In this document: piece after piece, positions 37,036 to 41,905 of the stretch | Numbering within the stretch: position 1 is the first letter of the stretch | Layout of the letters: the number at the start of each line of letters is the position of its first letter | From: an uncultured Acidimicrobiales bacterium | Lineage (GTDB): Bacteria; Actinomycetota; Acidimicrobiia; Acidimicrobiales; SZUA-35 | Direction: 5' to 3' | DNA length: 64,000 bases | Assembly: GCA_938002965.1 (NCBI GenBank) | Contig: CALKZY010000034.1 | Coordinates: forward strand, 1 to 64,000 | Made by a program: the position numbers and the translations under genes | Notes under the pieces: generated by a model | What the model was told of the DNA's origin: nothing | Database searches by the model: none | The model's input: the letters and a program-made list of their open reading frames with translations, nothing else

Positions 37036-37058
37036 TACCTCTCCAACCTGACTTGTAG

Positions 37059-37141
<83 letters not shown>

Positions 37142-37298: not shown

Positions 37299-38498
37299 AT
37301 GAGTTCGGTCATGATTGCATTCACCTATCCGGGCCAAGGCTCTCAGAAGGAAGGAATGGGCTCCGCGTGGGTCGAGCACCCCTCCTGGGAACTAGTGGCG
37401 GAAGCTTCGGAGATCGCCGGACGCGATCTTGAACATCTTCTTTTGCGAGCCGACACCGCCGAGTTGACCGAGACCCGAAACTCCCAGTTGTCGACATACG
37501 TCCTGAGCATGGTGGCCCTCGACGCGGTGGAGCGAACCGGGATCGAGCCGGCCTTTCATGCCGGCCATAGCCTCGGAGAATATTCAGCCCTGACCGCGGC
37601 CGGCGTCTTGAGCTTCGCCGGAGGAGTTCAGCTGGTAACCGAACGAGGCGATGCCATGCAGGCAGCGGCCGACAGCTCCGAGGGCACCATGGCCGCCGTC
37701 CTAGGTCTAGATGACGAGCAAGTTGATTTGGCCTGTCGGCGGGCCGATGGTGAAGTCTGGGTCGCGAACTACAACTCGGCCGGTCAAGTCGTAATAGCCG
37801 GCGACGAAGACGGCCTGGCCAAGGCAGGCGAACTGGCCAAGGAACTCGGTGCCAAACGGGTCATGCCCATCAAGGTGGGAGGCGCGTTTCACACCCCGTT
37901 CATGTCGCCAGCGCGAGATCGGCTGCGCAAAGCCATCGCAGAAACCGAGTTTAGGGACGCCCACCGAGCGGTGTTCGCCAACGTCGACGCCGCTCCGCAC
38001 GAAGCGGCAGATGACTGGCCAGGGCTGCTGGGAGCACAGTTGACCAGCCCGGTCCGCTGGCGTCAGACCCTCCATGCGCTCGACGAGGCAGGCACCACCG
38101 TTTACCTCGAGATCGGTCCTGGAACGACGTTGACCGGCCTGGTGAAACGAACCCTGAAGGGATCTAACTGCCTCAGTGTGGCCGCACCGGACGACGTCGA
38201 CTCGCTACTCGAGAACCTGTCCAGTGCCCGGGAGTCAACTGCGGTGGCCGAGGGCGAAAGTCTCTACGCGGTCGAACGTCTTATTGTCAGCCCGGCCAAT
38301 GGAGTCTTCGAACCCCATTCAACCGTCACCCCCGGTATCGAGCTCCAACGCGGTGACGCCGTAGGCATCGTGGGAACAACCGAAGTCCTCTCAGCCTTCG
38401 CCGGCAAGGTCGAAGGCCTTCTGGCCATGGCCGGCGAGAGAGTAACAACATCGCAACCGCTGGCGTGGCTACGGGCCCCGTCAGTCGGCAACCCTTAA
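37299..38498 (+). CDS. fabD: Malonyl-CoA:ACP transacylase FabD with C-terminal BCCP-like domain
   Basis: FabD moves malonyl from CoA to acyl carrier protein. I take the ATG at 37299, because the family normally begins at IAFTYPGQGSQ. The nucleophile is Ser91 in GHSLGEY and the catalytic histidine is His198 in GGAFHTPF; NYNSAGQVVIAG and EIGPGTTL complete the fold. The core ends near residue 310. The last 70 residues (about 328-392) look like a biotin/lipoyl carrier fold: VSPANGVFEP, a GDAVGIVG strand, then FAGKVEGLLAMAGERV and QPLAWL, but with no EAMKM biotinylation motif. It heads fabD-fabH-fabG-acpP-fabF. Confidence 0.93.
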   Translation: MSSVMIAFTYPGQGSQKEGMGSAWVEHPSWELVAEASEIAGRDLEHLLLRADTAELTETRNSQLSTYVLSMVALDAVERTGIEPAFHAGHSLGEYSALTAAGVLSFAGGVQLVTERGDAMQAAADSSEGTMAAVLGLDDEQVDLACRRADGEVWVANYNSAGQVVIAGDEDGLAKAGELAKELGAKRVMPIKVGGAFHTPFMSPARDRLRKAIAETEFRDAHRAVFANVDAAPHEAADDWPGLLGAQLTSPVRWRQTLHALDEAGTTVYLEIGPGTTLTGLVKRTLKGSNCLSVAAPDDVDSLLENLSSARESTAVAEGESLYAVERLIVSPANGVFEPHSTVTPGIELQRGDAVGIVGTTEVLSAFAGKVEGLLAMAGERVTTSQPLAWLRAPSVGNP

Positions 38499-38540: not shown

Positions 38541-39521
38541 ATGAACGAGACAACGACGGACGCCACACAAAATGGACCGACGGCGGGAACCGGGCCATGG
38601 GGTCTCAAGTTGGCCGGAGTCGGGGCTGCGCTGCCACCCAAGGTCTTGACCAACGACGACCTAACCGCGTGGATGGACACCACCGACGAATGGATCCGCG
38701 AACGGACTGGGATCGGCGAGCGCCGCCTGGGAGGCACCACATCGGGTTTGGCCACCGAAGCGGCCAGAGCCGCTCTCGAAGCCGCCAACACTCAACCCGA
38801 GGAGATCGAGCAGGTCATTCTTGCCACCACTAGCCCTGACTACATGTTGCCCGGAACAGCGCCGGCCGTAGCCCGCGAGTTAGGGATCGAATGCGGGGCC
38901 TTCGATCTACAGGCCGCGTGTTCCGGCTGGGTATACGGCTTGGTCGTCGCCAATGGCCTGATCGCCCAGGGGATGAAGAAGATCTTGGTTATCGGGGCCG
39001 AGACCTTGGATCGTATGACGGACTATCACGATCGGGGCACCGGCATCCTGTTCGGCAACGGCGCTGGCGCTGTTGTGGTTGAACGAGACGAGAGCAACGG
39101 CGGTCAGCTGCTGTCGTGGGATCTCGGCTCCAACGGCCAGCACGTCCACATCCTCTACTCCGAACACGACGGCAAGATCCAGATGGATGGCCGTGAAGTA
39201 TTCCGTCAAGCCGTCACCGTCATCCAGCAATCAGCCACGGCAGCTCTGCAGCGGGCCGGACTGACTGTTGACGACATCGATCTTGTCATCCCGCATCAAG
39301 CCAATATTCGCATCGTCGAGGCTGCATGGAAACGACTTGGTTTTTCCATGGACAAGACCGAGATGGTGCTGGAACACACCGGGAACACGTCGGCGGCCTC
39401 GATCCCCTTGGCTCTCGACAACGCTCTCGCCAACGGGCGCATCCAATCCGGATCGACCGTCATGTTCGTCGGCTTCGGGGCAGGCATGACATGGGCCAGT
39501 GCCGTCGTACGGTGGGCCTGA
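38541..39521 (+). CDS. fabH: Beta-ketoacyl-ACP synthase III
   Basis: FabH starts fatty-acid chains by condensing an acyl-CoA with malonyl-ACP. The triad is Cys127 (QAACSGW), His252 (IPHQANIRI) and Asn282 (EHTGNTSAAS). GNGAGAVVV and the C-terminal LFVGFGAGMTW-like end (MFVGFGAGMTWAS) are present. Length 326 is normal. GAGGA lies six bases before the ATG. It follows fabD by 42 bp. Confidence 0.97.
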   Translation: MNETTTDATQNGPTAGTGPWGLKLAGVGAALPPKVLTNDDLTAWMDTTDEWIRERTGIGERRLGGTTSGLATEAARAALEAANTQPEEIEQVILATTSPDYMLPGTAPAVARELGIECGAFDLQAACSGWVYGLVVANGLIAQGMKKILVIGAETLDRMTDYHDRGTGILFGNGAGAVVVERDESNGGQLLSWDLGSNGQHVHILYSEHDGKIQMDGREVFRQAVTVIQQSATAALQRAGLTVDDIDLVIPHQANIRIVEAAWKRLGFSMDKTEMVLEHTGNTSAASIPLALDNALANGRIQSGSTVMFVGFGAGMTWASAVVRWA

Positions 39522-39594
39522 GAGAGCACACGTTGATCGCACCTCAAGCTCACCGAGTCCCACGAGGATCGATGAACGTTCCACGGGAGAACCG

Positions 39595-40353
39595 ATGACA
39601 GACACAACTAGCGGCGCCACGAACACGTCGTCGGAACCCCGGGTCGCCTTCGTTACCGGCGGCAGCCGAGGCATTGGCTTGGCGACCGCCCGCGCGCTGG
39701 CAACCCAGGGCCACCGGGTGGCCGTCGGGTCCCGCACAAAACCCGATGAGCTGGACGACAGCCTTCTCTGGGTCGAATGCGATGTGACCAATCCCGGCTC
39801 GGTCGACGACGCCTTTACGACCATCGAAAACGAGTTCGGTACCGTTCAGATTCTGGTGTCAAACGCCGGAGTAACGGCCGACATGCTAGTTCTGAGGATG
39901 GACGATGACGACTTCACGTCGGTCCTGGATGCAAACCTCGCCGGCGCATTCCGAGTGGCCAAGCGAGCTGTAAGGCCGATGATGAAAACCCGATGGGGGC
40001 GAATTGTCTTCATCTCCTCCGTTGTCGGTGCCCTGGGACAAGCCGGTCAAGCTAACTATGCCGCTTCAAAGGCGGGGCTGGTCGGCCTTGGCCGCTCACT
40101 GGCCCGAGAATTCGCTTCTCGTGGAATCACCGTGAATCTCGTCGCCCCCGGGCCGATCGAAACCGACATGCTGGCTGCAGCAGGCGACGCCGCCATCGAG
40201 GCCATGGTTGGCGCTGTACCGGTCGGTCGCATTGGCCAGCCCGAAGACATCGCTGCAGCCGTCGGCTTTCTCGCATCCGACCACGCCGGCTACATCACCG
40301 GTGTGACTCTTGGCGTCGACGGCGGCCTCGGCATGGGAGGTGGCGCTCAGTAG
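39595..40353 (+). CDS. fabG: 3-oxoacyl-ACP reductase (short-chain dehydrogenase)
   Basis: The start at ATG 39595 is supported by GGGAGA five bases upstream, giving 252 residues; a longer frame overlapping fabH has no signal. The NADPH-binding TGGSRGIG, the SNAGVTAD segment, catalytic Ser in VFISSVV and the YAASKAG Tyr/Lys pair define the SDR fold, and [19 protein letters not shown] fit FabG. It reduces beta-ketoacyl-ACP in each elongation round. It lies between fabH and acpP. Confidence 0.95.
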
Positions 40354-40447: not shown

Positions 40448-40465
40448 CCCGGCGTTGGAGCCGGG
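40448..40465 (+). promoter_or_regulatory. Hairpin in the acpP upstream region
   Basis: CCCGGC and GCCGGG form a 6-bp stem with a 6-nt loop, 14 bp before the acpP ribosome site. It could be a stabilising 5' hairpin or a weak fabG terminator. A TACATT sequence 13 bp upstream of it is a possible -10 for a separate acpP transcript, needed because ACP is usually very abundant. Confidence 0.35.
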
Positions 40466-40493
40466 TGCGAAACCGTTCCAGGAGGAACATTCC

Positions 40494-40733
40494 GTGAGTG
40501 ATGAAGCAAAGTTCGAAGCATTTCAAAAGTGCGCCGTCGAGGTGCTCTCCGTCGACGCCGCCAAGGTGACCAAAGAAGCTCGGTTCGCCGAGGATCTTGA
40601 CGCTGACAGCCTCGACCTCGTAGAGCTGGTCATGGCCCTTGAGGAAGAGTTCGGCGTTTCCGTAGACGAGGAAGAGCTCGAAGGCATCGAGACCGTAGGT
40701 GCTGCCTACGATCTTGTTGTCGGGAAGCTTTAA
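40494..40733 (+). CDS. acpP: Acyl carrier protein
   Basis: A GTG start at 40494 is chosen because AGGAGGA, the strongest ribosome site in the window, lies seven bases before it. The 79-residue acidic protein carries the phosphopantetheine attachment Ser39 in [19 protein letters not shown], followed by acidic helix III. It carries growing acyl chains between Fab enzymes. The TAA stop overlaps the fabF start (TAATG). Confidence 0.97.
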
Positions 40734-41905
40734 TGACGACGGCGGTCGCCGTCACCGGCCTCGGGGTCGTCGCACCCTGCGGGGTCGGCGTCCCGGCGTT
40801 CTGGGAGGGCCTTCTTCGACAGCCCGAACACGGTGATCGAAAGGTTCCTGATTGGGACCCGGCACCTTGGTTCAAAAACCCCAAAGAAGCCCGACGGGCT
40901 GACCGCTTCACCCAGTTCGCCTTGGCCGCTGCCGCCGAAGCGGTGGAACAGGCCGGCGACATGGACCATGACCCCAGCCGAATCGGTGTCTTCATCGGCA
41001 CCGGCATTGGCGGCATCAGCACCAACGAAACGCAAATCGTTACTCGGCATGAAAAGGGCGACCGTCGGGTCTCCCCCTTCCTCATCCCGATGATGATGCC
41101 CAACGCCGCCGGCGCAGCCGTTTCGATGCGCTACGGCATGCAGGGGCCTTGTGAGACCATCGTGACGGCCTGCGCAGCGGGAACGCACTCGATCGGGGCC
41201 GGCCTACACGCCATCCGATCCGGGCGGGTTGATGCGGTCTTGGCCGGCGGAAGCGAAGCACCGTTCTGTCCTACGTCCGTCGCTGGCTTCAGCAACATGA
41301 CAGCATTGTCCAGCACCGGCGAATCAAGACCTTTCGACCGGCGCAGAAACGGCTTTGTGATGTCGGAAGGAGCCGCTGTACTCGTCTTAGAGGATGCCGA
41401 CAAGGCACGACAGCGAGGGGCCAATATTCTGGCCCTCCTGACTGGCGCGGCTAGCACTGCGGATGCTCACCACATCACTGCGCCGTCCCCAGGCGGTTCA
41501 GGAGCCATTCGCTGTATGGAGATGGCAATGTCCGACGCCGGTCTGTCGCCATCGGACATTGTCCATATCAACGCCCATGGAACCTCGACGTCGCTGAACG
41601 ACGCGGCAGAGGCCGAAGCGGTGGGCAAGGTCTTCGGAACCACCGGGGGACCTGCGGTGACATCAACCAAGGGTGTCACCGGCCACGCGCTCGGCGCCGC
41701 CGGGGCGTTGGAGGCAGCAGCGGTCATCGAGTCGATGCGCAACGGCCTGATACCTCCAACGTTCGGTCTTGAAGAACCTGACCCCGAACTCCCGGCAATC
41801 GACCTGGTTACCGAGCCAAGGCCTTGGACTCCAGGTCCGACCCTGTCGAACAGCTTCGGATTCGGTGGACACAACGGCACGATCGTGTTGACCCCAGCGG
41901 CCTAA
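40733..41905 (+). CDS. fabF: Beta-ketoacyl-ACP synthase II
   Basis: FabF extends acyl-ACP chains with malonyl-ACP. The catalytic Cys147 lies in TACAAGTHSIG and the two histidines in INAHGTST and TGHALGAAG. The C-terminal NSFGFGGHNGTIVL motif is intact. At 390 residues it is about 20 shorter than usual, mainly at the N-terminus, where a direct GLGVVAPCG opening is present. It is coupled to acpP by a 1-bp overlap and ends 16 bp before the convergent fabZ. Confidence 0.96.
   Translation: MTTAVAVTGLGVVAPCGVGVPAFWEGLLRQPEHGDRKVPDWDPAPWFKNPKEARRADRFTQFALAAAAEAVEQAGDMDHDPSRIGVFIGTGIGGISTNETQIVTRHEKGDRRVSPFLIPMMMPNAAGAAVSMRYGMQGPCETIVTACAAGTHSIGAGLHAIRSGRVDAVLAGGSEAPFCPTSVAGFSNMTALSSTGESRPFDRRRNGFVMSEGAAVLVLEDADKARQRGANILALLTGAASTADAHHITAPSPGGSGAIRCMEMAMSDAGLSPSDIVHINAHGTSTSLNDAAEAEAVGKVFGTTGGPAVTSTKGVTGHALGAAGALEAAAVIESMRNGLIPPTFGLEEPDPELPAIDLVTEPRPWTPGPTLSNSFGFGGHNGTIVLTPAA

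Follow-up and report, generated by a model that had tools for sequence, protein, structure and literature searches.

Why should the malonyltransferase of bacterial fatty-acid synthesis carry, behind its active domain, the fold of a biotin carrier with nowhere to put a biotin? The question is raised by the fabD gene in a 64,000-nucleotide stretch (the window) of contig CALKZY010000034.1 from an uncultured Acidimicrobiales bacterium. Its product ends in a domain resembling the biotin carboxyl carrier protein (BCCP) of acetyl-CoA carboxylase, called the module here, which is best explained as a dead, non-catalytic biotin carrier that probably descends from an AccB-like BCCP. Comparable modules are fused to FabD, or stand free beside it, in many related genomes, and a tentative case can be made that they are a protein-docking part of the operon that initiates type II fatty-acid synthesis.

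A complete FabD followed by a biotin-carrier fold

The first-pass annotation had described a complete malonyl transferase core followed by a BCCP-like domain lacking a biotin site, and both parts of that description hold. The core clears the equivalog cut-off of TIGR00128 (Table 1), and S91, R116, H198 and Q247, which we take to be the catalytic residues as in E. coli FabD, are invariant across 79 aligned FabDs. In its core the protein thus resembles FabD of known structure (1MLA, 1NM2) and it differs in the extension, for among the 60 best of 82 PDB chains for the FabD profile no match runs beyond profile position 312. One fused protein (L186, genome G674, family f90) has a core that falls under the cut-offs of FabD and malonate decarboxylase epsilon alike, with nearly equal scores.

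Pfam Biotin_lipoyl matches the tail of the window protein weakly and below its cut-off (E 0.0048, 16.7 bits against 22.1) and is reached at E 0.01 by 18 of 68 relatives, so that the fold has to be argued from profile and structure evidence. Structure prediction gives the module the barrel-sandwich (biotinyl/lipoyl) fold of a BCCP, and with the profile evidence this rules out a disordered tail or a chance resemblance, as well as an unrelated fold. In the AlphaFold model core and module are joined by a probably flexible linker of low predicted local distance difference test score (mean pLDDT 51 at residues 311-320, below 50 at 315-322); the model defines the folds of the domains, not how the module sits on the FabD core.

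When the modules are aligned with E. coli AccB, other BCCPs and lipoyl domains, the attachment column holds lysine in 12 of 12 listed controls and in none of 198 module loci, several genomes being counted more than once, where there is instead a gap (132), glycine (36), serine (13) or another letter (17); a biotinylated carrier is thereby ruled out. The GTTEV earlier set in the place of EAMKM in fact follows a gap, the four residues opposite EAMK being absent from the window and its close relatives, and the loss of the biotin site read from it stands. The single lysine of the window module sits elsewhere and is not conserved, and the aligned residues exclude normal biotinylation of the module. 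At the position of the AccB-type thumb the loop is shorter in the window, and some relatives have a long variable insert at the same site.

AccB itself (PF00364, TIGR00531; 1BDO, 4HR7) thus shares the barrel-sandwich fold, whereas the module is without the biotin lysine, has the hairpin deleted or rich in glycine and serine, scores below the Biotin_lipoyl cut-off and lies within or behind FabD. The best NCBIfam match of the module is to the biotinyl-like stretch in the C-terminal part of YqeB, a selenium-dependent molybdenum cofactor protein (TIGR03309, E 5.9e-6), although at 25.9 bits it is far below the cut-off of 220, and no fab gene was found alongside the YqeB-like loci L181 and L185.

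Conservation and selection

The module is not confined to one assembly. In all 80 named loci the FabD match runs through to the tail and a module match is present, and the extension is not missing from close relatives; these loci are titled mostly Acidimicrobiales, Acidimicrobiia or other Actinomycetota, with one Acidobacteriota (L103). A fusion artefact of one assembly is ruled out by these loci and many further genomes, and a single-genome peculiarity by the presence of the module in relatives and in other classes.

Among 68 representatives P15, G18 and G52 (module numbering) are invariant, and those reaching 90% include G2, E3, L5, R10, E63, R64, W73 and R75. The ratio of non-synonymous to synonymous substitution (dN/dS) of the module is 0.04-0.31 against eight relatives, with dS near saturation; in the seven relatives where it could be computed it is 0.01-0.13 for the core and 0.05-0.58 for the linker (dS again near saturation), and residues 306-318 give the highest value of the three segments in all seven. 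As far as substitution patterns tell, the module is conserved and under purifying selection. Around its start G319, E320, L322 and R327 are conserved in at least 90% of the 79 FabDs, and because the GE-x-L sequence is so well kept despite its position at the low-confidence end of the linker, it suggests itself as a candidate binding motif.

Fused and free forms across the phylum

The picture of a FabD-tail fusion proved right as far as the fused form goes and incomplete beyond it, since the module also occurs as a separate open reading frame (ORF) between fabD and fabH. In six loci of distant families (L114, L115, L118, L119, L121, L130) the FabD gene stops at 301-318 residues and the module is the next ORF, beginning directly after the fabD stop codon in four of them.

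The wider module profile finds 69 places in 68 of 396 genomes of the phylum at E <=1.3e-13. The module is fused to FabD in 21 of these places and free directly behind a FabD core in 39; in six it adjoins a fabH and the fetched stretch contains no FabD, in one it adjoins a fabH while FabD is on the opposite strand, which makes seven modules that have fabH as neighbour but no fabD of like direction ahead of them, and in two (L176 in G418, L177 in G649) a module-like ORF lies beside neither gene. fabH follows the module in 65 of the 69, two more being at a contig or locus end, and loci of families f84, f91 and f98 that have no fabD ahead of the module still keep fabH beside it. All 68 genomes also have a FabD match, from two result lists compared by eye. 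The usual order is fabD, module, fabH, fabG, acpP, fabF, some loci being without fabG; at L133 fabG comes straight after a fused FabD, without an intervening fabH. Genome G640 has two module copies (L217, L182), each adjoining a fabH, and the module of L183 is a free ORF.

Weaker matches are more numerous (234 of 396 genomes with the wider profile at E 1e-6, 91 of 396 with the narrower) and those fetched include true BCCPs (L187, L189, L190, L219, L228) and the two YqeB-like proteins, so they are not all members and only the 69 places are counted. Two of these BCCP-like proteins, L187 and L219, read EVMKSF or EIMKNF instead of EAMKM and keep the lysine. The count is partly circular in that profile A3 contains many of the 69 loci; profile A1, built from FabD-linked modules (class search and named loci), had earlier picked up the free copies of other classes from sequence alone. 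Families f5/g16 and others, in which the FabD match spans the core alone, were left outside the inspection.

Where the module is absent, and how old it is

FabD is matched in 338 of the 396 genomes, far more than carry the module at E <=1.3e-13. Among eleven FabD loci taken as module-free controls, seven have fabD then fabG, not fabH, and three (L229-L231, of the same class as the window) fabD then fabH; at control locus L228 a true BCCP lies about 5 kb from fabD. L132, of the window's own order, has a fabD-fabH pair with no module, and the second FabD copies L126 and L128 in f17 genomes have neither a module nor any other fab gene found in the fetched stretch, these genomes also holding a fused copy in the fab operon (L127, L129). 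No FabD match at E 1e-10 is listed for nine f9 genomes, which may use another route to malonyl-ACP (ACP, acyl carrier protein) or a type I synthase; a further f9 genome, G258, has a weak one.

A FabD tree of 81 rows (26 drawn from 139 fused, 39 from 48 free, the full 15 without a module, and L218) gathers the module-bearing FabDs in one branch of 72 rows (SH-aLRT, the Shimodaira-Hasegawa-like approximate likelihood ratio test, 95, no bootstrap), with six module-free FabDs inside. It implies at least three changes between fused and free states, and well supported branches force at least two changes of the fused label. From this pattern and the module-free FabDs, the module by its phylogeny is old, has gone through more than one fusion or split, and can disappear. 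In a tree of the module itself, which has too few columns, a single module clade is not rejected (approximately unbiased test, p-AU 0.129) and one YqeB row falls inside on a long branch.

Table 1. Coordinates of fabD, its domains and the neighbouring genes in the window.
Feature	Position	Strand	Basis
fabD coding sequence, 399 aa, C-terminal BCCP-like module	37299..38498	+	TIGR00128 292.9 bits vs cut-off 260.9
Malonyltransferase core (Acyl_transf_1), residues 8-291	37320..38171	+	Pfam domain match; GHS-L-GE serine motif
Low-confidence, probably flexible linker, residues 311-322	38229..38264	+	pLDDT
Conserved GE-x-L motif, partly within low-confidence stretch	38253..38279	+	alignment of 79 FabDs, pLDDT
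BCCP-like barrel-sandwich domain, residues 325-392	38271..38474	+	profile and predicted-structure evidence
GTTEV, directly after four-residue deletion opposite EAMK of BCCP	38373..38387	+	alignment
fabH, next gene	38541..39521	+	Pfam ACP_syn_III, ACP_syn_III_C
fabG	39589..40353	+	Pfam adh_short_C2, adh_short
Acyl carrier protein ORF (true start uncertain)	40455..40733	+	Pfam PP-binding
fabF	40733..41905	+	Pfam ketoacyl-synt
tRNA-Leu (CAA), just upstream of fabD	37058..37141	-	

Relation to described carrier homologues

Lysine-less BCCP homologues are already known as the plant BADC proteins, which act in fatty-acid synthesis (excerpts of PMC11926652 and PMC7712654). By the excerpt of PMC11926652 they have 25-30% identity with BCCP, are without the AMKL motif and have been seen both as inhibiting the plastid carboxylase and as the glue of its assembly, and in that of PMC7712654 they are regulators competing with BCCP. 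They differ from the module, which is bacterial, in working in the plastid with a heteromeric carboxylase that contains BCCP, and in that interaction has been shown for them whereas the module is known from sequence and model; no fusion to FabD is described in either excerpt. The excerpt of PMC10863985 describes E. coli AccB complexes and names FabD, with no FabD-BCCP protein shown there. No FabD-BCCP or FabD-lipoyl protein, nor a BCCP-fold protein in a bacterial fabD-fabH operon, was found in searches of the open-access literature, and what appears new is such a protein in that operon, free or FabD-fused.

What the module may do

Our tentative first choice, held at rather less than even confidence, is that the dead BCCP-derived module is a protein-docking part of the type II initiation operon, with the carboxylase ranked first as partner. 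What the data show is the predicted fold, the loss of the biotin lysine, conservation, selection and the repeated linkage to fabD and fabH; docking, partner and any channelling or regulation are our inference. Docking to the carboxylase or to ACP, perhaps with channelling of malonyl-CoA, had been suggested in the first-pass annotation and is still a conjecture. The module, tied to FabD by the flexible linker or acting as a free small protein, would offer a BCCP surface and the conserved GE-x-L...ER leader to a protein whose usual partner is a carrier, and by analogy with BADC that protein could be the complex making malonyl-CoA. FabD might thereby be placed where its substrate is made, or might sense or limit the carboxylase, as BADC does with the plastid enzyme. 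A broader claim, that the dead BCCP is an overlooked type II subunit in much of Actinomycetota that physically couples the carboxylase's malonyl-CoA supply to FabD and FabH as a bacterial counterpart of BADC, we regard as somewhat unlikely.

Two points bear on the choice of the carboxylase. An AccB-type match at E <1e-25 occurs in only two of 71 module genomes (the set of 68 with G453, G464, G543, G601 and G630 added and G418 and G649 omitted), which speaks against a literal BADC role. AccB-type BCCPs above cut-off occur in 157 of the 396 genomes, many of them in open frames of at least 600 residues that need not be free AccB, and the negative association with the module is confounded by phylogeny and mixes two thresholds. 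In the window's genome the best TIGR00531 match (E 5.3e-10) falls far short of matches above the cut-off; three of its proteins instead carry biotin carboxylase together with a carrier domain bearing EAMKM, and it also has three lipoyl acyltransferases. Secondly, because the module also exists as a separate ORF, and beside fabH without a co-directional fabD in seven of 69 places, FabH is no worse a candidate for the partner than the carboxylase, and evidence from neighbours favours it at least equally.

It is accordingly possible, if on the doubtful side, that the module is a FabD-FabH (or FabD-ACP-FabH) scaffold joining the producer of malonyl-ACP to the first condensing enzyme, with the carboxylase uninvolved. 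The near-constant company of fabH in the 69 places, its retention in f84, f91 and f98, and the fabG that follows fabD in seven of the eleven controls would all fit; yet the fusions seen are all to FabD, none to FabH having been noticed though no dedicated test was made, L133 lacks the intervening fabH, and module-free fabD-fabH pairs exist (L132, L229-L231). Less probable, and in our view unlikely, is a regulatory or stabilising domain that packs on or near FabD and tunes its activity or stability, perhaps through a small ligand: repeated fusion to FabD and strong conservation beyond glycines and prolines (E380, R381, W390, R392) would suit it, but in the model a low-confidence linker joins the domains, and free copies can adjoin fabH in fetched stretches that contain no fabD. 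A relic of an AccB gene once in the fab operon, now drifting or serving solubility only, is improbable; the AccB-type fold agrees with it, as does the lack of an AccB-type match at E <1e-25 in 69 of the 71 module genomes, as if the type of carboxylase had been replaced (confounded by phylogeny as above), and purifying selection and near-invariant residues across families oppose it. That the module still acts as a carrier, with a different residue modified or a different cofactor attached, is scarcely credible, since for all its intact predicted carrier fold the tip of the hairpin is missing (132 of 198 loci) or varies, for the most part glycine or serine, with no common reactive residue.

Bacterial type II fatty-acid synthesis is usually pictured as separate soluble enzymes linked by ACP alone. 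A conserved BCCP without the lysine, encoded between fabD and fabH across many families of a single phylum and FabD-fused in several of them, would give chain initiation a docking or control component of its own, and raises the question of whether the supply and the use of malonyl-CoA are physically coupled. Plant BADC proteins, themselves debated, would have a bacterial parallel in it, and the fused or adjacent module in so many related bacteria points to an unstudied part of the fatty-acid machinery.
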